Origin: SAR324 cluster bacterium
Lineage (GTDB): Bacteria; SAR324; NAC60-12
Reading direction: 5' to 3'
NCBI GenBank assembly: GCA_015231825.1
Contig: JADGAV010000002.1
Span: 73,914 to 137,913, forward strand
DNA length: 64,000 nucleotides
In this document: piece by piece, positions 44,281 through 56,635 of the stretch
Position numbering within the stretch: position 1 is the stretch's first letter
Layout of the letters: each line of letters begins with the position of its first letter
Notes under the pieces: model-generated
Told to the model about the DNA's origin: nothing
Seen by the model: only the letters and a program-made list of their open reading frames with translations
Database searches by the model: none
Made by a program: the position numbers and the translations under genes

Positions 44281-44874
44281 GGTGATTCTTCAGATAAAAA
44301 TTAAAATTACATTCGTTCCCTGACCTCGTGGGATGATTTGCTGTATTTTTTAAAAAAGGAGATTTTGAGTGAGTGCCTAAGGTAAATTAAGCAAAAAAAA
44401 GTGGCAATCTGTAATATTGCGGACAATCCGGCACTAGGACGCAGCCTTCCTTAAGATTCGATAGATTCTCAATTGGGAAATCCCTGAAAAGAATGGAAAT
44501 CATAAACACGAAATGATCGGCATCAATTGGACAGCGAGAGGAAGGTATGCGCCAATTGCCCGAGCATTCGGGGAAAAGCAAAAATATGGGTGAGAAAGCA
44601 GACGACTCAATTTATGAAGATGAATCAGTTTTGTTCCCGTATTCTTTTAAATCGATTCAGTTTTTCTTCTGTCAAACCGGGGTATCTCCAGATTGGCCCG
44701 GAAATGATCGGACATATACCTTTGATTTGCTCTGAAAAATTCATCAGGACGTTTAAAAAAATAGAAAATCGGGAAAATGTTGCAGTTTTTCCAAATTATT
44801 TTTTTTGCCTCCGTCTATGGAAAGTAACGTAAGTTCTGAAAGTTTTTGGAATCATCCCAAATCAGAGGAAATGA
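44281..44874. other. Divergent intergenic region, no gene seen
   Basis: About 590 bases between pepN (minus) and the receiver-domain protein (plus). Short frames at 44387-44581, 44527-44832 and 44547-44735 are not convincing: no ribosome sites and no protein-like pattern. Confidence 0.35.
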
Positions 44875-45399
44875 ATGTCGGAAAAATTGAATATCCCCAA
44901 ATTGAGATTGATCAAATCCCAAGCTATGCAACCCAAAAAAAACACCATTTTGATGGTCGATTGCGACATAGAAAATTTGAATGCAGTCGTGGAAATATTG
45001 AGTCAGGACTACCATGTTTTGAAGGCAGGTGACGGGCAGGAAGCTCTGGAACTGATTGAACATAAAGCTAAAAAAGAACCCATTCATTTGATCATTTCTG
45101 AGCATCGTCTGCCGCGGATGTCTGGAATGGAACTGATGGCGCGTTCTCACCTGCTTCTGCCGGATTCTATCAAAGTCATCCTCAGCGGATACACCGATTA
45201 CGATGGAATCATTGATTCGCCAAATTCGGGTGTAATCTATGAATTTTTGAGCAAGCCATTGGAGACATCTGAACTGATGAATACAGTCAGACGGGCTTTA
45301 CGGGTTTATGAAACTAAAGAAAAGGCCAGTTCAAAAAACAACGGCGCTCACTCTTCATACAATTCCTTGACTTCGGCCGCACTCAAGGCACGGTTGTAA
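44875..45399 (+). CDS. Receiver-domain protein lacking the phospho-acceptor Asp
   Basis: 174 residues. It has a receiver fold with the acidic pocket VDCD (29-31), the Thr/Ser position ILSGYTD and the Lys in FLSKPLE. The place of the phosphorylated Asp is Glu: E76 in LIISEHRLPRMSG, encoded by GAG. The last 25 residues are a Ser/Asn/Lys-rich tail. There is no output domain. Asp-to-Glu at this place often mimics the phosphorylated state, so a constitutively active or phosphate-independent adaptor is possible. Ribosome site AGAGGAA. The 3' end overlaps the convergent LamG lipoprotein gene by 52 bases. Confidence 0.8.
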   Translation: MSEKLNIPKLRLIKSQAMQPKKNTILMVDCDIENLNAVVEILSQDYHVLKAGDGQEALELIEHKAKKEPIHLIISEHRLPRMSGMELMARSHLLLPDSIKVILSGYTDYDGIIDSPNSGVIYEFLSKPLETSELMNTVRRALRVYETKEKASSKNNGAHSSYNSLTSAALKARL

Positions 45400-47150
45400 A
45401 TGCGGAAATCATCGATTTTTCCGACAAAACCGGTATAGCCGGCCGGACTGTTGAAGTTGGTTTGGTTCCGGCTTTCCCGTCCGATGTAAACCCCTTTATA
45501 ATGTTCATGAGAATTGACGGTTCCGGAAATTGAGATGGAATCTTCCTGGAGCTGATTGTCGAGAAACATTTTCAGTTCGCTTCCATCATAGGTGACAACG
45601 ACGTGATACCATTGATTTAGGGAAATAGGGTTATTGCTCAGGATTTCGTGATTGGTGAAGGATCCGCCGTCAATATTCACGCGAAAAGAAATCTTATTGT
45701 CAACCCGGGAGTTGGGACCCAATAGAAACTGACCAAAGGTATCTGACATGAAGGTTGTAACGCAGGATTCCGAACTGAATTCGAAGGCATTAAACCAGAC
45801 GCTCATGGTAAAGTGGTCCAGTCCCCCCAATGTCTCGATTCCACTGAGCAAAATCGATTGGGAGAAAGGGTGTTCTCCTCCTTCAAATATATAAGCACTT
45901 TCCGCAATGCCGTGACGGTCTTCGGATAACGTTGCTCCATCCACCTGTCCGTCGCTTCCGTTTCCGCTGTGATCATTGGCATTTCCGCTGAATGGATAAT
46001 GAAGGGTCAGTCCCCCTAAAGGTAAGGAAGAGTCTTTGACGGTAAAAACAGAATCGATAAAGTAGTGTGTGGCATTGCTGAAAGATGCTGGAAACACAGA
46101 AGATGAATTGCAGATGAGCCGGAGGGAATAAACCCCAATGGTATCAGGAGTGTTGAATGAAAACGAAGTGTTTTGGCTTTCTCCGATGGGAGGGGTGGTA
46201 ATGGGGGAGGCAAGATTGCCATAAACGGGAAAAATTTCCTGTTCCTGATTCCAGCTGCCAAATATGCTGCAAAAGTACCAGGCATTGAGATTTTCCAGAT
46301 AAGAGAATTGCCATTTGAGGTTTGCCTGCACAGTTTCGGATTTTCCGAAAGTCTCATTGTGGACATTGTCGTTTTCAATCGCAATCACATGGGCATTCAT
46401 CGCTTCACGATATTCCCGAGCACCATCGATCCGACCAAAGTAACGCCAGTCGGAATTGAGAGAAGAGGATTCGTGACCCTCGACTTCGAAGATGAAATCG
46501 AATTTATAATGCTGAAGATCTCTGAAACTTGCTGGGTGACTTGTGGATGAGTTGAGAATCAAGCGAAGCAGATAGACTCCGGGAACAACGGGGGTGACAA
46601 AGCTGAAGGATTCCGTTCGGGTTTCACCGATCACGGGAAACCCTTCCTGAATGAGAGAAAAGGGAGTTTCTGGAACCCAGTCTCCAAAAATCCCGCCGAG
46701 GTAGATCGTTCCGGTATCCTCATTGTCAGGGAACTGCCAATTAATAATCGCGCTGATCGTCGTTGCAGGTTCATAGACGCTCAAAAGGTTGCTACTTTCC
46801 AATAGCAGGGTTTGACCTTCCTGATCTGCATCGAAGCGCATCACCTTTTGATTGATCGGCAAAAGGGGGTCATTATTTGAACCTCCGGGTTCCTTCTTCT
46901 CTTCTTTCTTGTCGGCACCATTGTCATTGTTGACCCCATTTGCCAAAAGAAAGATTCCTCCGGTAATCCCGGCTATTCCGCCAACCCCCAGGTTTTCCTT
47001 TTTAAACTTGATGGAATCTGCGGAACAGTTCGAATTGTTTTCGTCTTCACAATCGACGGGGATTTCTTCAACCGATGAGCAATGCGAGAGAAGGACCAGA
47101 CTGATTGCCAGAACGAATAAACTTTTTAGATTCTTAAATTTACCGTTCAA
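45348..47150 (-). CDS. LamG-domain lipoprotein with internal duplication
   Basis: About 600 residues. A lipoprotein signal peptide (LFVLAISLVLLSHC, lipobox cysteine near 24) places it on a membrane facing the periplasm or surface. After a Gly-rich and charged linker come two similar modules of about 95 residues (about 130-224 and 274-372): each has WQF, IFG(D/S)W, GE(T/S), SFSF(V/N)TP, GVY(L/S)LRLI and NSS...PASF. A LamG/concanavalin-like domain follows (about 382-600: HYPFSGNANDHSGNGSDGQVDGA, YVGRESR-like turn, IDDFRIYNRALSAAEV). The start is the TTG at 47150 with ACGGAGAAAAGC upstream; another TTG lies six codons earlier. It overlaps the caspase gene by 11 bases and is probably translated with it. 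Confidence 0.8.
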   Translation of the reverse strand: MNGKFKNLKSLFVLAISLVLLSHCSSVEEIPVDCEDENNSNCSADSIKFKKENLGVGGIAGITGGIFLLANGVNNDNGADKKEEKKEPGGSNNDPLLPINQKVMRFDADQEGQTLLLESSNLLSVYEPATTISAIINWQFPDNEDTGTIYLGGIFGDWVPETPFSLIQEGFPVIGETRTESFSFVTPVVPGVYLLRLILNSSTSHPASFRDLQHYKFDFIFEVEGHESSSLNSDWRYFGRIDGAREYREAMNAHVIAIENDNVHNETFGKSETVQANLKWQFSYLENLNAWYFCSIFGSWNQEQEIFPVYGNLASPITTPPIGESQNTSFSFNTPDTIGVYSLRLICNSSSVFPASFSNATHYFIDSVFTVKDSSLPLGGLTLHYPFSGNANDHSGNGSDGQVDGATLSEDRHGIAESAYIFEGGEHPFSQSILLSGIETLGGLDHFTMSVWFNAFEFSSESCVTTFMSDTFGQFLLGPNSRVDNKISFRVNIDGGSFTNHEILSNNPISLNQWYHVVVTYDGSELKMFLDNQLQEDSISISGTVNSHEHYKGVYIGRESRNQTNFNSPAGYTGFVGKIDDFRIYNRALSAAEVKELYEE

Positions 47151-48591
47151 AGCTTTTCTCCGTCTCAAGCAGGCTCAACATGCGCTGAGCCATTGGATGT
47201 CCTTGATGGGCGGCTTTCTGATAGTGACGAATTGCCTGAGCCTGGTCTTCAGGGACACCATAACCTTTTAAATACATCCCTCCCAAATTGAATTGCCCCT
47301 GAGACATTCCCTGGCTGGCTGCCCGGCGGTACCAATATAAAGCTCGTGACAAGTTGGGCGGTGTCCCGATCCCGTTTCTCAGCATGAAGCCAAGTCTTGT
47401 CTGTGCCCGGGCATGTCCTTGATAGGCAGCTTTTTCATACCAGTAAACAGCTTCTTGAGCATTTTTTTCAGTTCCGAGGCCTTCCCGGTAGATCACGCCG
47501 AGTTTGAATTCATCATGAGGCTGGAGTTGTAAATTGATCTGAAGATCCTTGATTCCATAAGCATCCGTGTATTTTTTGACCAGTCTACCTGCGTTGAAAT
47601 CCTGACCTGAATGAGATCGAATGGCATGTCTGACTTCGGTCAAAAGACCTTCTTGTTCCTGACTTGGCCGCGTCAGTTCTTTCCATTTAATCCGCGCATG
47701 AAACGTATACCGTCCCGATGGGTAACGCTGCAGAAATTCACCAATCACTTCAAGATCCTTTGTTGTCTTCACCAACTGCCAGGCCTCCTCTTCCTCCTTA
47801 AGGCTTAGAGCCGGTGAGGATTCGGGATTGAAATAAAAGCGTCCGGTGATCAGCCCTTCTATCCATGGTGTTTGCTGGTTATCGGTTTCTTCAGAAACTC
47901 CGGCGGCTACTTCCCGCATCATCAATCCGACTTCAAGGCCAGGCCTGCGCATTTGCTGGAGAAAATGCTTCATAAAAGGGCTGTTTCTTCCTTTTCCATC
48001 CAGTGCCAACATCCCGGGGCGAGTGGAATACATGATAAATGTCCCTTTGGGAGCGTACATTCGGGCCAAACCTTTGCTGATACTGCGTGTGGTTCGGTAG
48101 AAAGGATTGTTGCGGCAGGCATCAAAAATCACCAAATTCAAATCATTGCCGGCGCTTTCCATTTTGCGGAGCACCAAATCGGCTTCAATGGCCCGATCAA
48201 TCACTTCATCTTCACCCTGAATATCAACCCCCATTGGAATCAGATAATTGCTGCCTTTTACCTGAATTCCGTGGCCTGCAAAGTAGAACAGGCCCATACC
48301 GCCATGTTTTAATTCATTTCCGAAATCCCGGATCGCTTCATGCATTTGAGGACGGTTCAAATTGGTTTTTAGGATGACTTCAAAGCCCAAGTTCCTCAGT
48401 GTCTCTGCCATATCCTCAGCATCGTTGATAGGATTGCTGAGAAAACCCATGCTCTGGTAGTTTGAATTGCCTATCAGCAGGGCAAGACGACGTTGGTCCT
48501 CAATTCGTTCGACACCTCTTGTCTGCGACTGGCCCCAAACGGGTAGAAAAATCATTAAATTAAAAATGAGAGTAAAAAGTATGGTTTTCAT
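47140..48591 (-). CDS. Secreted caspase-like (C14) protease with Sel1 repeats
   Basis: 483 residues. A signal peptide (KTILFTLIFNLMIFLPVWG) points to export. Residues about 35-255 are a caspase-fold domain: ALLIGNSNY, then the catalytic dyad H107 in YFAGHGIQ and C159 in IFDACRNNPF, followed by STRPGMLALDG. From about 360 there are three Sel1-like repeats (LGVIYREGLGTEKNAQEAVYWYEKAA and two similar units), which mediate protein contacts. Caspase-plus-Sel1/TPR proteins are known in bacteria, but most functions are undetermined. Ribosome site AAGGAATATCT. It is the first gene of a unit with the LamG lipoprotein, next to the M48 gene. Confidence 0.86.
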   Translation of the reverse strand: MKTILFTLIFNLMIFLPVWGQSQTRGVERIEDQRRLALLIGNSNYQSMGFLSNPINDAEDMAETLRNLGFEVILKTNLNRPQMHEAIRDFGNELKHGGMGLFYFAGHGIQVKGSNYLIPMGVDIQGEDEVIDRAIEADLVLRKMESAGNDLNLVIFDACRNNPFYRTTRSISKGLARMYAPKGTFIMYSTRPGMLALDGKGRNSPFMKHFLQQMRRPGLEVGLMMREVAAGVSEETDNQQTPWIEGLITGRFYFNPESSPALSLKEEEEAWQLVKTTKDLEVIGEFLQRYPSGRYTFHARIKWKELTRPSQEQEGLLTEVRHAIRSHSGQDFNAGRLVKKYTDAYGIKDLQINLQLQPHDEFKLGVIYREGLGTEKNAQEAVYWYEKAAYQGHARAQTRLGFMLRNGIGTPPNLSRALYWYRRAASQGMSQGQFNLGGMYLKGYGVPEDQAQAIRHYQKAAHQGHPMAQRMLSLLETEKSFER

Positions 48592-48893
48592 AGATATTCC
48601 TTAATTTATTTTCATGCTCAACCGTACCCTTGCAAAGTAGGTGCAGAAATGTCCAATTTGACATGTATATACCACATTGAGAGACTCATAGAGTAAGTGT
48701 AGTTGAGCAATCATAGAAATCAATTGAGTTCCTCTGAATTACTCATTTTCGGCAAAACAATCAAACACAATTAACCCAAAATTTATTTCAATTGCATCAA
48801 ATCTTTCCAGCGCTCTGAGATCATCTACACTTTTTCAGTATGCCCCCTTCTTTTATGTCAAAAGAGTCGGGATTGTTTCGAATATTAGCAGAA
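48592..48893. other. Intergenic region between the M48 and caspase genes
   Basis: About 300 AT-rich bases with no gene. I could not identify a terminator for the M48 gene or a promoter for the caspase gene, though the length suggests the caspase unit has its own promoter. Confidence 0.35.
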
Positions 48894-51236
48894 TCAATTA
48901 ATTTGGGAAATCGTGGTCAAATAAACACGCGTTTCGGACTTTTCGACTTCGTTTTCTTTGGACCGGAGCTTCTGGAGGAGTTGGAAAGGCGACCGTTCGA
49001 GTAAAACCAAATGCTCCTCATTTTCATCGAAAGAAAAAGGGTGGGTGGAAGCAAATGCCATGATCATTTCTCGTCCGCAGCTATTTTCGCAGGAGAGCCG
49101 CCATCGGCTCTGGGCGGACAGTTCATGGAGGCGGCCTTTCTGCAGTTTGACTGGTTTTTTGACTGTTGGATACAGAAGGATGCGATTGCCATCAGCATCA
49201 AAATAAATCACTTGAAGGTAGCTTTCTTTCTCTGTTTTAAAGAAGAGTTTGAGTTCTTCACCTTCCTGGTAACTTGCTCCGTCACTTTTGTTGAGAAAAA
49301 GATCGATTTTAAAATCTTGAGGAGCTGCAATAGGAACTGCAGCGATTTCGTTTTCAATTTGCTGGATCCTGCCTGGCTGGTCTTGACGCAGACTATAGAG
49401 TGCCGGGTTTGGATCGAAAGCGAACCAGGCAGTGACTTCGTTTTTCCTGACATCGAGGGCGAAATGAGGAAAGATCCAGGTTTCGCTGCCGAAATTTTGT
49501 ACCTTCCGCAAAGGAATTCCCCATTGATCGATGACTTGCCGGATAGACCAGGGATCTGAAAGTTTTGTTTCCACAAATTCGATGTTTTCCTGATAGCGGC
49601 GATTGGTCAGCGCCAATACTTTAAGGTTTTTCGCTTCGTACAAATTCCCTTTGAACAGCGAAGTTTGAAACGAATAGTTGGAGTTCATCCGACGCAGTTC
49701 CTGTGCGGTTTTGGAGTTCACTCGTCCGAGCGGGAGAGGAGTTTGCGGTGGTGAAACCCGCATACGGTTTCTGAACTCATGAGTCGGATCAAGAGTCGGT
49801 TTTAACGTCGTATATTCATTTTTAAGATTGGCTTTTTGCTCTGGTCTATCCTCTAGATATGACTCAATCACCGAAATGTTGTAGGAAGCAAATGAAAAAA
49901 GACTTTGCTGGGAGAGTTGTTGGAGTATGTTCAGTGATTTTCCAATGGTTTCAAGCTTTTCTGACCGGCCATACAAAAAAAGCGCGATGGCTTTGTTGTT
50001 CAGTGCTTCGGAACTTTCCGGACTCTGCTTAAGAATTTCTTCTACTGTGGCAAGCGCTTTCAGATAAAGGCCTGCCGTAATTTGAACCGTCGACAAGTTA
50101 ACACGGGTTTGGGTTCGGTATCGATCCATTTCCACTGCCCTTTGCAGATGATCAGTGGCCAGTTCGAGGTATTCTTTTCCTTTTTCCTTGTGTCGGCAAA
50201 ATGAATTGACGGGTCCTCTCGTCATGTGGCGGCCTTCAGTTTCGCCTGCCAGCGAAGTCGGAAATTTAAAAACCAAAGCAGGCATTTTTCTTTGCATTTC
50301 AGAACAGTCCGACAGGTATCTCAATGCCTCCTGATAGTAACTCAATCCAATATTATTGAAGACCTCCTGGCTTGGAAAGCGTTGGAGAAAGGTGTCGAAC
50401 AGCGCAATGGCCTCCTGATACCTTCCCAGTTGATACAATCTGACACCAAAATGAAAGACACCCAGTTCGGCCGAAATTGATTTGAACTGGGTTTCCAAAA
50501 ATTTTGCACGGGTTTGGAGTTCCGGATGGGACTCGCCATAGGCGAGGTTAACCGCAGTTTGCAATCCATAGTGTTCAAAAAAACTGATGCCGTCAAATTG
50601 CAGAATCACTTGGGGATCATAGCCCGCCATTGTCATGTAGAGGATCCCATAAGCATCTGCCCGAAGTTCCTTGGATTTGGCCACATTTCGGGCAAATTTT
50701 TCCATTTCCTCGGAAGGAGGCAAGAGGTTCGAACAGCACTGGAGTAAATATTTTAGAACTTCATGCTCGCTTTCTTTTGAATTTCCATAAGTTTTCACGG
50801 CGTGAAAAGCAGCGGTATGCCAATAATCGTCTCGTGCCAGATGTGCAAGTTCATGCCCGAGTACAAAGGCCATTCTTGCATCACCAATGGAACGGGGCAC
50901 ATTTTGATATGCCAGATCCAGCAATGGTTCAATAATCAGGACACTTCCGTCTGGAAGAGCCCGGGCCAGACTGCCCTCGCACAAAAACTTCTTTTCTTTG
51001 ACGATGACCAAACGAGGTAAATGTTTTCCCCCTTTGTCCGATACGTCCCGAATTTTTTGAAACACCTCTTTGGTGTGTGAAACCCAGGGGTGCTCACTCT
51101 GCTCCAGGGCACCGCATTCAGTGAGGAAAAAATTGGCAGACTCTTTCAAACCGAGCGCATGGGTTGAAGAGAAAAAAAGACAGATGAAGAGAAGGAGAGA
51201 GTAAATTTTCAATGAAAGCCTGAGCAGCATTAACAT
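48894..51236 (-). CDS. Secreted M48-type metalloprotease with TPR and DUF4384 domains
   Basis: 780 residues. N-terminal signal peptide (LKIYSLLLFICLFFSSTHA). The zinc motif HELAH is at 128-132 and the third ligand Glu probably lies in KELRADAYGILYM. A helical region with TPR-like units follows (about 250-430: LYQLGRYQEAIALFDTFL, then VFNNIGLSYYQEAL). The C-terminus about 660-745 matches DUF4384: YQEGEELKLFFKTEKESYLQVIYFDADG, a domain often found beside caspase domains. It would degrade or process proteins in the periplasm. The start has no strong ribosome site. It is adjacent to, and in the same direction as, the caspase gene, and divergent from the sigma factor. Confidence 0.82.
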   Translation of the reverse strand: MLMLLRLSLKIYSLLLFICLFFSSTHALGLKESANFFLTECGALEQSEHPWVSHTKEVFQKIRDVSDKGGKHLPRLVIVKEKKFLCEGSLARALPDGSVLIIEPLLDLAYQNVPRSIGDARMAFVLGHELAHLARDDYWHTAAFHAVKTYGNSKESEHEVLKYLLQCCSNLLPPSEEMEKFARNVAKSKELRADAYGILYMTMAGYDPQVILQFDGISFFEHYGLQTAVNLAYGESHPELQTRAKFLETQFKSISAELGVFHFGVRLYQLGRYQEAIALFDTFLQRFPSQEVFNNIGLSYYQEALRYLSDCSEMQRKMPALVFKFPTSLAGETEGRHMTRGPVNSFCRHKEKGKEYLELATDHLQRAVEMDRYRTQTRVNLSTVQITAGLYLKALATVEEILKQSPESSEALNNKAIALFLYGRSEKLETIGKSLNILQQLSQQSLFSFASYNISVIESYLEDRPEQKANLKNEYTTLKPTLDPTHEFRNRMRVSPPQTPLPLGRVNSKTAQELRRMNSNYSFQTSLFKGNLYEAKNLKVLALTNRRYQENIEFVETKLSDPWSIRQVIDQWGIPLRKVQNFGSETWIFPHFALDVRKNEVTAWFAFDPNPALYSLRQDQPGRIQQIENEIAAVPIAAPQDFKIDLFLNKSDGASYQEGEELKLFFKTEKESYLQVIYFDADGNRILLYPTVKKPVKLQKGRLHELSAQSRWRLSCENSCGREMIMAFASTHPFSFDENEEHLVLLERSPFQLLQKLRSKENEVEKSETRVYLTTISQIN

Positions 51237-51512
51237 TTCAGTTTAAAAAAAGGTCATAAGTCTTTGTTTGACGTGATGTTGGAATTCTTTACCAAGTTCT
51301 TATCAAATATGATTCATTTTTGCACTAGAAACTTGTAGACTTCAGACAGTTAATTCCTGGTCTGACAGGTTTGTGTATTCAAAAGGATTAAAGTTTTTCC
51401 CCTGTACTTATGGTTTCCCAGAATTATTTCCATGGAATCAGCGGTCCAGGAATTTTATTGTATTATTTTTCAAATTTGTTTTTCTCGCTCCGTCTATACA
51501 TTAAAAACAACA

Positions 51513-52799
51513 ATGAGTGCAGTCAAACGATTGCTTCGACACAGCTTGAAGCGGTTTCTTAAAAAATTTGAAGACACGCTGGACATTTTTATTTTGTCGG
51601 ATCAAATTTTGATGCCGTTCAAGAAGCAGCTTGTTATAGAAATCTGGGAAAAACTGCTGCTGATCGCCCAGTTTCGTTATTTGACCAGTGCACGTTTGAA
51701 CGGGCATCTGGATTCAGTTCTAGGGGAGAAAAGCGAATTCAAGGCTTCGATTTTCAGCAAGGCCCTCGACCCTCATCGCTTGTTCGATATCGAATTTGAA
51801 GGACGAAAAAATGGGAAGTTCGGGCCGATTGGCAGCATGGTCCAGCTGATGTGCCGTCACTACCGTGTTTCAGACGCCGATGTTGAGGACTGGACACAGG
51901 AAATTTATTTGAAACTCAATGAAAATGACTTTCATAAATTGCGTGCCTATCGGGGGAACAGCTCCTTTTTGACCTATTTGATCTTGGTGGTGGAACGTCT
52001 CTGCATAGACGAAGCCCGCTCCCGCTGGGGAAGGAAGGAGATACCCGAAGAAATAAAAGAAATGGGAGGTTTAGCCTCCCGACTGTATATACTCCTTTAC
52101 TGGAAAGAAAAACCGCTACATGAAGCTTATGAGCAGCTGAGTATGGAAGAAGGTGACTCGGTTCATGCCAATTTTGAAGAAAAGGTTCAAAATCTTGCTG
52201 AAAAAATCGTGCAGCAATTGGGGAAAATTCACCATACCAGGCACCTTCGTATGGAAGATGTTTTGGTCTTAAAAAATCAAAACCCTGGCAAAAATACAAA
52301 CAATGAGGATTTTCCGGATTTGGAAAATTTGGCTGGAAAGACAAAAACTCCGGAAGAGGAGGCCATTGTAAAAGACACACTAGTGCAACTCAAACAAGAT
52401 CTGTTCGGCTCAAAAACGGTGACTTTTTTCAAACTGACATCTCCTGTCCTGGAGCAGCTCAAACTGGAAATTAATGATGAGAAGGTCTGGGAAAAACTTT
52501 GGCGGCTTCAAGATCGTGAGTATGAAAAGGAAGAAGCTTTCAACAACGTACTGACAGGGATTCTTGGCCGCCGAACTGCCACAAAATGGCAGCATACAAT
52601 TGTGAAGCATGCTGCCTATGTTCCTCTTCATTATGTGAAGTTTATCAATAATGTGGAAGGGGGACAATCAATTCCCAAAATTGCAGAAAATTTGGGAATT
52701 CCTCTTGACCAAATTTATGCTCGCCTCAATCGATTGAAAACAGAAATGATTGAGAAAAACTGGAATAAGGAACTGATTGATCAATTTTTTAAACGGTAA
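51513..52799 (+). CDS. Atypical, oversized sigma-70-family factor
   Basis: About 428 residues from ATG 51513 (an ATG at 51432 is possible; neither has a clear ribosome site). Residues about 105-195 match sigma region 2: DVEDWTQEIYLKLNENDFHKL, then YRGNSSFLTYLILVVERLCIDEARSRWGRK. The last 60 residues have a region-4-like helix-turn-helix: GGQSIPKIAENLGIPLDQIYARLNRLKTEM. Between them lies a helical insert of about 200 residues, so the protein is about twice the length of common ECF factors. The next gene, 4 bases away, encodes a zinc-finger anti-sigma factor, which strongly supports the sigma assignment. It probably controls an extracytoplasmic response. Confidence 0.72.
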   Translation: MSAVKRLLRHSLKRFLKKFEDTLDIFILSDQILMPFKKQLVIEIWEKLLLIAQFRYLTSARLNGHLDSVLGEKSEFKASIFSKALDPHRLFDIEFEGRKNGKFGPIGSMVQLMCRHYRVSDADVEDWTQEIYLKLNENDFHKLRAYRGNSSFLTYLILVVERLCIDEARSRWGRKEIPEEIKEMGGLASRLYILLYWKEKPLHEAYEQLSMEEGDSVHANFEEKVQNLAEKIVQQLGKIHHTRHLRMEDVLVLKNQNPGKNTNNEDFPDLENLAGKTKTPEEEAIVKDTLVQLKQDLFGSKTVTFFKLTSPVLEQLKLEINDEKVWEKLWRLQDREYEKEEAFNNVLTGILGRRTATKWQHTIVKHAAYVPLHYVKFINNVEGGQSIPKIAENLGIPLDQIYARLNRLKTEMIEKNWNKELIDQFFKR

Positions 52800-52803
52800 T
52801 AAA

Positions 52804-53721
52804 ATGACTTCAAATTGCCCTTCCCTGGATGAACTTTCAGCATTTATCGACCAAAAGATAGGCCATGAACAACAGGCAGGAATCAAAAAACACTTTGACT
52901 CCTGCTCGGCCTGCTATGAATTGTATCTGGATAGTTTGGAAACTCAAAACAGCTTTTCCAGACTACAGTTTTCAAAAGAATGGCGGAAGTGCTTTGCTAT
53001 GTTTTCCCGTCCTGAAAAACGTACCTGGCCTTTTGCAATTCCAGCTGCAGCAGCAGTCATTCTGCTCTATATTTTTTGGTTTCAAAGCTGGCAGAGTTCT
53101 CCCTTTCCTTCCTCCTCCGAACTGACAAGTCAGCTTATCCAAAAAAACCGGGCAGCCAGTTTGATTGAATCCGGAATGGAGCAGGGAACGAGAGAGCAGG
53201 CATTTGTCAGCAACACTTCAGCCATGCAGCAGGCATTTGGAACGGGTGTCGCGCTCATTGATCTCGAATTGGCGAAACAGGCAGAGAATTGGGAATTGGC
53301 CGCAAAACAGCTGATGATATTAAACCATCATCTGGATAGCTTGCTCAAATCGGCAGTTTTGGTGAAGAAAAACCGGGAATTCATTCTTCAAATTGAGGAA
53401 AAAGGATTTTTGCAGCCAGGACAGAACGTCGGAGCCCCAATTGAGGCTTTTTTTAAAAATGAACCTGCGGTACTTTTTTTTCAATTTGGAAAATGGGTTG
53501 AAAGTGCCCGTCTGGCAGCAGTCTCTCAAAATTCTGGATTTTTTAAACGAGGAGATTTTGCTTTTTTCGAGAAAAAGCTGAACCCGGGCAACACTCCGGA
53601 AGCGGTGCTGGAACGATTGCTTTTGGCAAAATCCGTCATTTCACTGGAGACTTTAAGGGAAGAGGATATGAAACGACTGGAGAACCTGCTCATGGATATT
53701 GAGCAATACCTGCTTCAGTAA
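52804..53721 (+). CDS. Anti-sigma factor with zinc-finger domain and periplasmic domain
   Basis: About 305 residues from ATG 52804, 4 bases after the sigma gene. Residues 1-50 have the zf-HC2/ZAS arrangement: CPSLDELSAFIDQKIG, then H30-x3-C34-x2-C37 (KKHFDSCSACYEL). One membrane segment is at about 76-93 (FAIPAAAAVILLYIFWF). The remaining 210 residues, presumably periplasmic, are helical and not recognised. The protein would hold the sigma factor at the membrane and release it on an envelope signal. The adjacent secreted caspase and M48 protease are possible actors on its periplasmic part, which is inference. Confidence 0.8.
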   Translation: MTSNCPSLDELSAFIDQKIGHEQQAGIKKHFDSCSACYELYLDSLETQNSFSRLQFSKEWRKCFAMFSRPEKRTWPFAIPAAAAVILLYIFWFQSWQSSPFPSSSELTSQLIQKNRAASLIESGMEQGTREQAFVSNTSAMQQAFGTGVALIDLELAKQAENWELAAKQLMILNHHLDSLLKSAVLVKKNREFILQIEEKGFLQPGQNVGAPIEAFFKNEPAVLFFQFGKWVESARLAAVSQNSGFFKRGDFAFFEKKLNPGNTPEAVLERLLLAKSVISLETLREEDMKRLENLLMDIEQYLLQ

Positions 53722-53738: not shown

Positions 53739-54311
53739 TTATTTTGAAGGAACAGGATCGCCCTGCAAATCTTCGGTCAAGGCAGACTTTTGGCTGGTGT
53801 TGAGTGGGCTTTCAACAGAAAGTTCCGGGTGTTTGCAGCCTAGAGACACCGGTGTCCGTCCTCCAGTTTTAATTTTAAGATATTGGACCGAAGACACTTT
53901 TTCATCACCAACCTGGCGCGGATCATAGGTGACAGGAACTTGGGTACCGTCTTCAAGAACAGCATAAAGATGCTCGGGGAGATTGTGCCATTGCCTGAGT
54001 TTGGTGTCTCTCTCCTGCGGGTCATCAATTTCTATCAGGAGAGTGCATCCGAGTTCTCCTGAATCCCCCAAAAGCTCGTTGTACGTGTCTATTTCATGCT
54101 GAATATCGGTTTCCTTGACTATTCGCTCTGCCCTCATCATTTCCTGAATCTGATAGCGCATCGTGTCGGTGTTTTCAAACAAAAAAGTCAGCGATTCGCC
54201 GAGGTGAATCCGACGTGCTTCTTTTATGGTGAGGACTGTGCTGCGAAAGGCATCACGTTGTTCCTCATAAGTGACATAGTCGACAATATCCTCTCGACGA
54301 ACCTTTTTCAT
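53739..54311 (-). CDS. DUF3501 family protein
   Basis: 190 residues, soluble. It matches the DUF3501 pattern: YEEQRDAFRSTVLTIKEARRIHLGESLTFLFENTDTMRYQIQEMMRAERI, then ELLGDSGELGCTLLIEIDD and SVQYLKIK. The function of DUF3501 is unknown; it is generally found beside a Fe-S oxidoreductase and a rubrerythrin, as here. The start overlaps the stop of the Fe-S oxidoreductase gene by 4 bases (ATGA), so translation is coupled. The last 35 residues are a less conserved tail. Confidence 0.85.
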   Translation of the reverse strand: MKKVRREDIVDYVTYEEQRDAFRSTVLTIKEARRIHLGESLTFLFENTDTMRYQIQEMMRAERIVKETDIQHEIDTYNELLGDSGELGCTLLIEIDDPQERDTKLRQWHNLPEHLYAVLEDGTQVPVTYDPRQVGDEKVSSVQYLKIKTGGRTPVSLGCKHPELSVESPLNTSQKSALTEDLQGDPVPSK

Positions 54312-55678
54312 TCCTTTTTCTCGTTGGGGGGTTCTGCTTCAATTACTTTATTGGGAAAACCATCTGATCGATAGGCTTTGGCCAGAATACTCATGGGATG
54401 CATGGGTTTGATGCCGGCGTGCTGTTCAAACTGAAGCGCGGCCAATGGACAATCTGTTGACCAGATCGGGGCATTTTTCTGCATGGCGGAAAATGCTTTT
54501 TGGCCGATCCGTTTCGATGCTTCAAAGCTTTCAACTTTCATCGCGTAAGTACCGTCGTGACCGCAGCATTCCATCACAGTTTTGATTGGGGCCCCCAGGA
54601 TTTTTTTAATCAAATCCCGGCCCTTGAACCCGACACGCTGAGCACGTAAGTGACAGGGAGCATGATAACTGATTGATTCATCAGGTTTGCTCTTGATATT
54701 CGGGTTAAAGCGTGATTCATTGCGAATATTCCATAAATACTCAGAAGGGTCATTGACGGCTTCTGCCAGTTTAACTGCTCTTTGGCGGTCCTCTCCTTCG
54801 AGAAGCTCGGGATATTCCTGACGCATCATCATGGCGCAGGTGGGGTTGATTGCCAGAACCTTGCTTCCGTTTTCCACAAAAGGCATCAGGCAATCCAGAT
54901 TATGTTTGGCATGCCGGCGCAAAGATTCCAGGTCTCCTTGTTCCCATGCAGGCATTCCGCAGCACTTCAATCCTTTAACGCAAGCACATTCCACTTTATT
55001 CTGTTCCAGCACTTCCAGGGTATCCCGTCCAATTTGAGGTTCATTATGCTGGACATAACACGTTTGAAACAAAACGGTTTCTGAATTTTCGGATTCTTTG
55101 ATTTTTCCTTGTGTTGATGCCCATTTTTCGAAGGTGCTGGCGCTGAAGTCCGGAAGGAGCTTGTCTCGGTGAATGCCGAGAAATTTCTCCATGAAGAGGC
55201 GATGCGCTTTGACCCGGTTCATCACGTTGGCCATTCCGAAACTGGCGCGTGCCAGTTGCGCAGAAGAATCCGGATCTCCCAAAACACGATCCCGAAGAGG
55301 TTTTACCTTTCCTTTTGCCTGAATTGCTTTGAATCGATGGACAAGTTTGGGGAAATCCAATTGAAATTCATGCTCATCCCTGGGGGTGTAGGGACATTGT
55401 ACTTCGCAGAGTTTGCATTGAAAACAGGCGTCCATCACGTTTTGTGTGTCTGCCGGTGTAATACGACGTACGTCTCCATCATACTGATTGTCCAATAAAC
55501 TGAAGAGATTGGGAAAAGAATCACAGAATTTAAAGCACATTCGACATCCGTGGCAAACTTCAAATACCCGCTCAATTTCTTTGCTCAGCATTTGCGGGTC
55601 CCAATAGCGCGAATCGGTTGGATCGTAGCTCAGTCCATCAGTGGGGTAGTAAGATACATTGGCATTCTCTTCGCTCAT
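54308..55678 (-). CDS. Fe-S oxidoreductase with two CCG domains, GlpC/HdrD-like
   Basis: About 456 residues from ATG 55678, which has AAAAGGAGAGACCC upstream. The N-terminal ferredoxin-like part has two [4Fe-4S] motifs, CHGCRMCFKFC and CFQCKLCEVQCPY. The C-terminal half has the two CCG motifs, CCGMPAWEQGD and CCGHDGTYAMK, of heterodisulfide reductase subunit D/GlpC. It transfers electrons, probably between a quinone or ferredoxin and a partner protein. It forms a two-gene unit with DUF3501. The rubrerythrin gene is upstream, but a terminator separates them. Confidence 0.88.
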   Translation of the reverse strand: MSEENANVSYYPTDGLSYDPTDSRYWDPQMLSKEIERVFEVCHGCRMCFKFCDSFPNLFSLLDNQYDGDVRRITPADTQNVMDACFQCKLCEVQCPYTPRDEHEFQLDFPKLVHRFKAIQAKGKVKPLRDRVLGDPDSSAQLARASFGMANVMNRVKAHRLFMEKFLGIHRDKLLPDFSASTFEKWASTQGKIKESENSETVLFQTCYVQHNEPQIGRDTLEVLEQNKVECACVKGLKCCGMPAWEQGDLESLRRHAKHNLDCLMPFVENGSKVLAINPTCAMMMRQEYPELLEGEDRQRAVKLAEAVNDPSEYLWNIRNESRFNPNIKSKPDESISYHAPCHLRAQRVGFKGRDLIKKILGAPIKTVMECCGHDGTYAMKVESFEASKRIGQKAFSAMQKNAPIWSTDCPLAALQFEQHAGIKPMHPMSILAKAYRSDGFPNKVIEAEPPNEKKE

Positions 55679-55700
55679 GGGTCTCTCCTTTTGAAACATG

Positions 55701-55728
55701 AAAAAGCCGACTGTTTAAAACAGTCGGC
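55701..55728 (-). terminator. Intrinsic terminator after rubrerythrin
   Basis: On the minus strand an 11-base-arm hairpin (GCCGACTGTTT with its complement) is followed by five T. It lies 15 bases after the rubrerythrin stop, and before the ribosome site of the Fe-S oxidoreductase. Confidence 0.75.
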
Positions 55729-55742
55729 GGATTGACTGGAAT

Positions 55743-56162
55743 TTAGCTTATTCCGTCAAGCAGGCTTTGAAAACGGCCTGCATGGGATTTTTCTGCTTTT
55801 GCCAGAGTTTCAAACCAATCTGCAATTTCGTTGTGGCCTTCTTCTCGAGCGGTTTTTGCCATGCCGGGGTACATGTCCGTGTACTCATGGGTTTCCCCTG
55901 CAACTGCGGCTGCTAAATTGTTTGATGTGTCGCCAATGGGGAGTCCTGTTGCCGGGTCTCCGACCTGCTTGATGTAGTCCAGGTGCCCGTGAGCGTGACC
56001 TGTTTCACCTTCGGCAGTGGAACGGAAATTACTGGCAATTTCGGGATATCCCTCAACATCTGCTTCTTTTGCAAAATAAAGATATCTACGATTTGCTTGA
56101 GATTCGCCGGCAAATGCCGCTTTTAAATTTTCCAGGGTTTTTGATCCGTTTAGATCAGCCAT
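55743..56162 (-). CDS. Rubrerythrin without rubredoxin domain
   Basis: 139 residues, ferritin-like diiron protein. Ligand motifs are in [46 protein letters not shown] and [11 protein letters not shown]. The usual C-terminal rubredoxin (CxxC) domain is absent. The start at 56162 has ACGAGGAAAA upstream; the open frame goes on 58 codons further with no conserved sequence. The protein reduces hydrogen peroxide with electrons from a partner, and the Fe-S oxidoreductase downstream is a plausible source. It is divergent from the NorR-like regulator. Confidence 0.87.
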
Positions 56163-56635
56163 TTTTCCTCGTATTGCTTGAAGATTAAAAATTTCGGAAA
56201 TCCTGATACTTTTGATATCCGATTTATTTTGACGAAACAATTTTTTTTCCTGTTCGGCCATTTCTTTAGAAACAGGAATTCTGGTTTCCTTCATAAATTC
56301 AGGAAGACTTCCTTCTATCAGCACAAGGGATGCCAAACTTCACTGGAACGATAAATCATTTTTTTCACACGGCACGTCAAATGAGAATGGGTGTTTTTTG
56401 GATTATAAAATTTGCAATAATTTCAATTTATTAGTAATGAACCAATCAACAAGCAAGGGAAGAGTTTCTGGTTTTCAAAGTGTCGGATATTTGCCAATAA
56501 AGGGAGATGCGAAATTTAATTTAAAGATAAATTTCATTTTAAAACGAAATATCGTTGATATTTCCTCGATATTTCAGTATAAACGATATTTCGTTGAAAT
56601 GATTGAGGTCTTGAAACAGCCTGAAAAAATGCGAA
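56163..56635. other. Divergent regulatory region of rubrerythrin and NorR-like gene
   Basis: About 470 AT-rich bases without a gene. It holds the repeat cluster listed separately at 56543-56595. I looked for a -24/-12 sigma-54 promoter on both strands and found no convincing match. Confidence 0.45.
56543..56595. promoter_or_regulatory. Cluster of GATATTTC operator-like repeats
   Basis: Two perfect 14-base inverted arms, AACGAAATATCGTT (56543-56556) and AACGATATTTCGTT (56582-56595), flank two further direct copies of GATATTTC at 56557 and 56568. In all there are four copies of the 8-mer, one inverted. The arrangement just before the sigma-54 activator gene looks like binding sites for that activator or another dimeric regulator. 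Confidence 0.6.

Follow-up and report, generated by a model that had tools for sequence, protein, structure and literature searches.

Switching of membrane anti-sigma factors usually depends on one of a few first-cut proteases, and in regulated proteolysis of the RseA/RsiW type DegS or PrsW acts first and RseP next. Periplasmic proteases combining an M48 domain with TPR repeats are known from the BepA/YfgC type, and extracytoplasmic function (ECF) sigma factors are defined by the presence of regions 2 and 4 without region 3. In this work, we analyzed a locus of a SAR324 cluster bacterium that encodes an ECF-type sigma factor, a membrane anti-sigma factor and a predicted exported M48-TPR metalloprotease; it lies in a stretch of 64,000 nucleotides (assembly GCA_015231825.1, contig JADGAV010000002.1, positions 73,914 to 137,913 of the forward strand), hereafter the window, from whose first letter positions are counted. 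According to the available parts of the following papers, in Craspase a caspase-type protease can relieve the inhibition of an ECF-like sigma factor (PMC10028731); genes of group ECF54 have conserved protease neighbors (carboxypeptidase, subtilase, CHAT), and their regulation has been proposed to occur without an anti-sigma factor (PMC8999054); DUF4384 and caspases are mentioned together in the orthocaspase literature (PMC7475262, PMC6426788, PMC8283722); and PMC13373217 concerns another system. No description of a sigma/anti-sigma/M48 unit was found in the open-access literature, a scope outside which most subscription papers fall.

A conserved core of sigma factor, anti-sigma factor and M48 protease

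An earlier note, made from the sequence, had singled out five neighboring genes: a caspase-Sel1 protein, an M48-TPR-DUF4384 protease, a LamG protein and, divergently oriented, a sigma factor with its zinc-finger anti-sigma factor. Domain scans confirmed the identity and the positions of all five. Three of them form the core described here:

48894..51236, minus strand: M48-TPR-DUF4384 metalloprotease with a signal-like N-terminus; HExxH at residues 128-132, and E190
51513..52799, plus strand: ECF-type sigma factor; the reading frame opens at 51432, the start is more likely at 51513
52777..53721, plus strand: anti-sigma factor with a zinc finger, a transmembrane (TM) helix at about residues 84-102 and a helical periplasmic domain at about residues 107-314

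The protease matched PF01435 above the cut-off, and H128, E129, H132 and E190 were invariant in 9/9 aligned proteins. The sigma factor gave a Sigma70_r2 match above the cut-off (E 1e-6); its end is region-4-like, region 4 having no Pfam match of its own, and TIGR02937 aligned with residues 141-439 at 42.8 bits against a cut-off of 42.9. It carries an N-terminal extension and a long insert separating regions 2 and 4, and its homologues near M48 genes range from 183 to 434 aa. The anti-sigma factor has an HxxxCxxC finger, one TM helix and a periplasmic part.

An alignment of M48 proteins only was used as bait against a collection of genome contigs from 84,980 species. The search confirmed 102 places, of which the best 80 were kept, 7 of these duplicating stretches already in the set; the result was 83 distinct stretches including the window, 82 of them with this M48 family. 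Since the bait was built from sigma-linked M48 genes, other M48 branches are possibly under-sampled. L-numbers denote fetched stretches, G000 the window's own genome and G003 a genome of the same family but another genus; the taxon labels of far loci are record titles taken as given, mostly of metagenome bins.

The anti-sigma family was found within three genes of M48 in 72/82 loci, with a match that reaches into the periplasmic part in 68 of these 72, and directly upstream on the same strand in 63/82. A sigma gene lay within three genes of M48 in 54/82, and the co-directional order sigma, anti-sigma, M48 was observed in 51/82, so that a conserved sigma/anti-sigma/protease unit exists far beyond the window's genome, which supports this part of the earlier interpretation. 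These triads carry at least seven phylum-level labels, including SAR324, Nitrospirae, Planctomycetota, Acidobacteria, Desulfobacterales, Aminicenantes and Gammaproteobacteria. The divergent arrangement of M48 and sigma was seen in the window, L013 and L014. As a control, none of 22 other M48 genes from seven SAR324 genomes had a match to anti-sigma, sigma or caspase within 1.5 kb; among M48 genes of the sigma-linked family treated in the same way, 7/8 showed an anti-sigma or sigma match, the exception (G010 contig 246) having its M48 at the contig end. Because of the 72/82 loci with the anti-sigma family, the 51/82 triads and the 0/22 control genes, we conclude that the conserved core consists of sigma factor, anti-sigma factor and M48.

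A sigma match was present in 7/58 genomes, the window's own included, and besides the window nine kin stretches had a sigma-like match, 8/9 of them holding both anti-sigma and M48. L021 (G003 contig 33) contains a sigma/anti-sigma-like pair without M48, in which the anti-sigma match stops after the zinc finger. Gene order in relatives, the refuting condition set in the earlier note, gave a mixed answer. On G003 contig 163, counterparts of all five genes are clustered in a span of about 8.4 kb, and M48 and sigma are divergent as in the window; the caspase and LamG genes are inverted there and a lipoprotein-like gene lies between them. On G003 contig 17, M48, sigma and anti-sigma are accompanied by two lipoprotein-like genes, one of them with DUF4384, by a caspase gene truncated at the contig end and by a trypsin gene. 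Desulfonema magnum 4be13 has anti-sigma and M48 with no sigma match, and Geomonas paludis Red736 has M48 with a trypsin and a caspase-DUF4384 protein and no anti-sigma match.

The periplasmic domain and its association with M48

In an AlphaFold2 model of the window anti-sigma factor (mean pLDDT 88.9), the zinc finger and membrane helix are followed by an all-helical domain, and most of the last 160 residues are above pLDDT 90. The zinc-finger part of this predicted model superposes on RsiW. Likewise, a sequence search of solved structures with A4 matched the zinc-finger part to RsiW, DdvA and a CHAT-domain protein (8rot, for which no accompanying paper was found in the open-access literature), and the periplasmic part only to weak repeat, designed or helical proteins. 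A profile of A3 gave nothing at E <= 0.01 against solved structures, and fold searches with the periplasmic domain returned no confident solved-structure match, from which novelty of the fold does not follow. Among 34 domain members, one had a weak Pfam match (DUF6251, E 0.0086) and the others none. A protein search with A4 returned 14 matches among 7999 scored candidates, hypothetical where named.

The domain also occurs without the zinc finger, as a predicted secreted protein adjoining M48, in L068, L082, L111 and L113, four stretches with no sigma match anywhere in them. Separately built profiles of the stand-alone and anti-sigma versions were aligned by hhalign with 99.6% probability (E 1.8e-23, 191 columns), and the L082 domain modelled alone reached pLDDT 91.5 and pTM 0.89. 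A trypsin-like protease occupies the sigma position in L068, L082 and L113. In L111 (4662-9683, Oligosphaera ethanolica DSM 24202), a protein of 1673 aa carries trypsin-like and M48-TPR parts in one chain and is followed by the stand-alone domain; by eye, this protein has a zinc-ribbon-like start. On the M48 tree, the sigma-less state of the four loci requires 3 label changes, at least 2 of them forced. Because the domain adjoins M48 as a predicted secreted protein with neither zinc finger nor sigma, we infer from these arrangements that domain and protease may act together with or without a sigma factor. The earlier suggestion that the proteases act on the anti-sigma factor is helped to this extent: the stand-alone domain favors action of M48 on the anti-sigma factor, or binding to that factor.

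Other versions of these proteins were also seen. Extra copies of the domain are present in L040 and L063, and in L066 it is joined to TM segments and other parts. Anti-sigma-like proteins in L091 (700-1590) and L092 (4432-5382) have two consecutive zinc-finger motifs. Two Thiomargarita proteins, L081:354-1985 and L102:1830-3386, retain the membrane helix and the beginning of the periplasmic domain, joined to a different cytoplasmic part that lacks the zinc-finger motif. A candidate anti-sigma-M48 fusion in L106 was discarded: residues 1-300 of its 909-aa frame have no anti-sigma match, and the anti-sigma match of this stretch (E 1.9e-20) sits in another frame.

Promoter-like site, caspase and other neighbors

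An ECF-like site is common to the regions upstream of sigma in the window, in L013 and in L014; in the window it has the form AAA-N16-CGTCTAT. The remaining features of the locus are:

51472..51497, plus strand: predicted sigma promoter, AAA-N16-CGTCTAT, upstream of sigma
44793..44818, plus strand: second predicted sigma promoter, spacing as at sigma, 63 bases (from CGTCTAT) before the receiver gene
44875..45399, plus strand: protein with a receiver domain; a candidate for the sigma regulon
47140..48591, minus strand: caspase (C14) with Sel1 repeats and a signal-like N-terminus; H107 and C159
45348..47168, minus strand: LamG protein, probable lipoprotein; accessory according to domain scan and neighborhood comparison

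The pattern AAA-N14-18-CGTCT was found upstream of 15/53 sigma genes versus 11/463 other genes (p 7e-10), and with the three discovery loci removed and the spacer restricted to N15-17, upstream of 7/50 versus 8/463 (p 2e-4). G000 and G003 together have 12 genome-wide matches, 3 of which are the sigma sites where the motif was first seen; of the other 9, 3 fall in sigma loci; the corresponding p value, 1.9e-6, takes 31 kb as the sigma-locus length, a figure chosen by us. At least two of the matches in G010 are inside reading frames. Among kin, it was seen ahead of two STAS-domain genes and of genes belonging to a single lipoprotein-like family. No such site was found upstream of the M48, caspase or LamG genes of the window, which in this genome disfavors the proteases as simple members of the sigma regulon, one of the two roles suggested for them earlier.

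Further predicted sites lie about 21 bases before a double-STAS gene in L153 (G003 contig 155), a stretch that also encodes a LamG protein, and, in the window's genome, about 160 bases ahead of a gene for a PAS/HisKA kinase (L158, G000 contig 47, 10521-10546). The receiver protein encoded at 44875-45399 has a Glu (ISEHRLP) in the place usually taken by the phospho-acceptor Asp, and is perhaps an always-on pseudo-receiver. The opposite strand after the anti-sigma gene (53739-56336) encodes DUF3501 and Cys-rich/4Fe-4S proteins and a further protein that, by eye, resembles rubrerythrin.

The window caspase matched PF00656 with E 2.1e-41, and has H107 and C159 in place; no other C14 match (E <= 0.001) was found in the genome (5.8 Mb, 93.5% complete). 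Caspases with both GHG and D[AS]C motifs were present in the fetched stretch of 10/50 loci versus 0.51 expected from whole-genome counts and sizes (P 2e-10). The count obtained with a loose iterated profile, 16/50 against the same 0.51, was set aside, since it includes a 567-aa protein of L042 with no Pfam match and several others with no Cys motif. In all 82 loci, the loose profile matched in 28 and both catalytic motifs were present in 21; a LamG gene was found in only 1 other of the 83 stretches. All five genes as one invariant unit are therefore not supported. The tie between caspase and M48 drawn in the earlier note held: M48-caspase fusions are encoded in L016, L018 and L020, and they recur in other protein clusters. 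When the L073 fusion, identical to the gene in L018, was used as a protein query, seven full-length clusters were obtained; some of these are the genes just named, and six list both Pfam domains. The loose caspase label changes 15 times on the M48 tree, so the link is repeated and loose; caspases are recurrent partners of M48 loci. Trypsin-like proteases occur in 11/82 loci. Caspase-profile matches in L017 (8890-11862) and L052 (4957-7923), the latter joined to WD40 repeats, keep GHG and have no D[AS]C, and are possible pseudo-caspases near M48.

Proposed mechanism and comparison with described systems

Gene neighborhoods and the stand-alone domain lead us to propose that M48 relieves the anti-sigma factor by cutting or releasing its periplasmic domain, the three-gene core thus gating the sigma factor; we consider the chances of this proposal to be even. 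In the resting state, the zinc-finger membrane anti-sigma factor likely holds the sigma factor inactive. A periplasmic signal would activate the predicted exported M48-TPR protease, or unmask the anti-sigma factor for it; M48 would bind, and probably cut, the periplasmic domain, and this first cut might be followed by the M50 site-2 protease encoded in the window's genome. The freed sigma factor would then activate its own promoter and, in co-directional loci, the whole operon. Its regulon may be small, with the receiver gene in the window and, in kin, the STAS and lipoprotein genes perhaps among its members. In some relatives the caspase is fused to M48; it would likely serve as an optional second protease at the same step or just after it.

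Several observations weigh against this proposal. The window M48 is divergent from sigma; it lies outside the sigma operon and has no promoter-like site. Genome-wide counts of the promoter pattern match those of a backwards control (6 vs 6, 6 vs 5, 9 vs 9), so the site is supported by its place and not by its number. Distance correlations with M48 do not single out the periplasmic domain (partial r 0.30; zinc-finger part 0.31, sigma 0.60). In L091, L101, L105 and L114, the anti-sigma match is confined to the zinc-finger and TM part. No anti-sigma match was found anywhere in the fetched stretch, some of these being short contigs, for 8/82 M48 loci (L047, L052, L053, L070, L079, L097, L109 and L112). 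Finally, the domain could inhibit or steady M48 instead of being its substrate.

This last point leads to the main rival, binding without cutting, in which the anti-sigma factor would report how busy M48 is. The periplasmic domain would be an inhibitor or regulatory subunit of M48, each holding the other, until damaged envelope proteins occupy M48 and release or unmask the anti-sigma factor. A separate, predicted secreted domain beside M48 without sigma reads more easily as a partner or inhibitor than as a mere substrate, and the TPRs of M48 are able to bind partners. However, sequence cannot separate binding from cleavage, and the known membrane anti-sigma factors RseA and RsiW are inactivated via proteolysis (according to the available part of PMC10028731); we regard this rival as unlikely, though less so than the remaining ones. 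If M48, caspase, trypsin and lipoproteins were instead the mere regulon of an ordinary ECF system that reads its signal through a different protease, the co-directional placement of M48 after sigma and anti-sigma in 51/82 loci would be explained, since M48 would be driven by the autoregulated promoter there; promoter-like sites also precede lipoprotein genes in kin, the caspase-fold gene of L042 and the M48 of L105. The lack of such sites at the three window genes and the persistence of the domain-M48 pair in loci with no sigma match make this explanation rather improbable.

Bacterial caspases are known in defence, and the window caspase matched a PADLOC caspase model (E 1.1e-11), which would suit a suicide or anti-phage module with the sigma factor as its alarm. 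However, a caspase with a signal-like N-terminus would act outside the cytoplasm, the loose caspase match is restricted to 28/82 loci, and among the six proteins to which the search for a phage-defence context was confined, the remaining PADLOC matches were weak (E 0.002 to 0.006), except that of the caspase in the L018 fusion; we consider such a role very improbable. Taken together, these results partly support the interpretation given in the earlier note.

Beyond the proposed gating of sigma by M48, the undescribed helical domain and M48-TPR might constitute a new, widespread signaling module, a receptor-protease pair that is portable: joined to a zinc finger, the domain would gate an ECF sigma factor; alone, it would be a secreted partner in trypsin-linked cascades, and caspases would have been repeatedly recruited as a second protease. 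This wider reading is tentative, and we lean against it. If correct, it would describe an extracytoplasmic metalloprotease/caspase cascade wired to transcription. The gating of sigma by M48, if true, would represent a widespread stress-sensing circuit.

The locus resembles ECF54 in that its sigma genes have conserved protease neighbors; in contrast, an anti-sigma factor is the rule here and the constant protease is M48, which is not named for ECF54 in the available part of PMC8999054. With the orthocaspases it shares a C14 domain with a His/Cys pair, whereas a sigma/anti-sigma/M48 circuit is unmentioned in the available parts of PMC7475262, PMC6426788 and PMC8283722. Craspase/DiCASP (Csx29, Csx30, CASP-sigma) similarly ties a caspase-type protease to an ECF-like sigma factor and its inhibitor (PMC10028731, available part); however, the protease there is an RNA-guided TPR-CHAT protein working with a type III-E effector, and here we find a predicted exported C14-Sel1 protein and M48, with M48 as the constant member and no CRISPR gene among the nine window genes scanned. 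In BepA/YfgC, an M48 catalytic domain is likewise followed by TPRs; the present M48 differs in its C-terminal additions, its partner domain and its neighborhood, which the 22 other M48 genes do not share. Shared with RseA/RsiW are an ECF-type sigma factor, a membrane anti-sigma factor with an RsiW-like zinc finger, a protease nearby and a genomic M50. The neighboring protease is here an M48-TPR, and the periplasmic part belongs to a distinct, predicted all-helical family. An M48-TPR with a dedicated periplasmic domain, found under many phylum labels, would provide the poorly characterized exported caspases of bacteria with a testable regulatory setting and add another class of first-cut protease.

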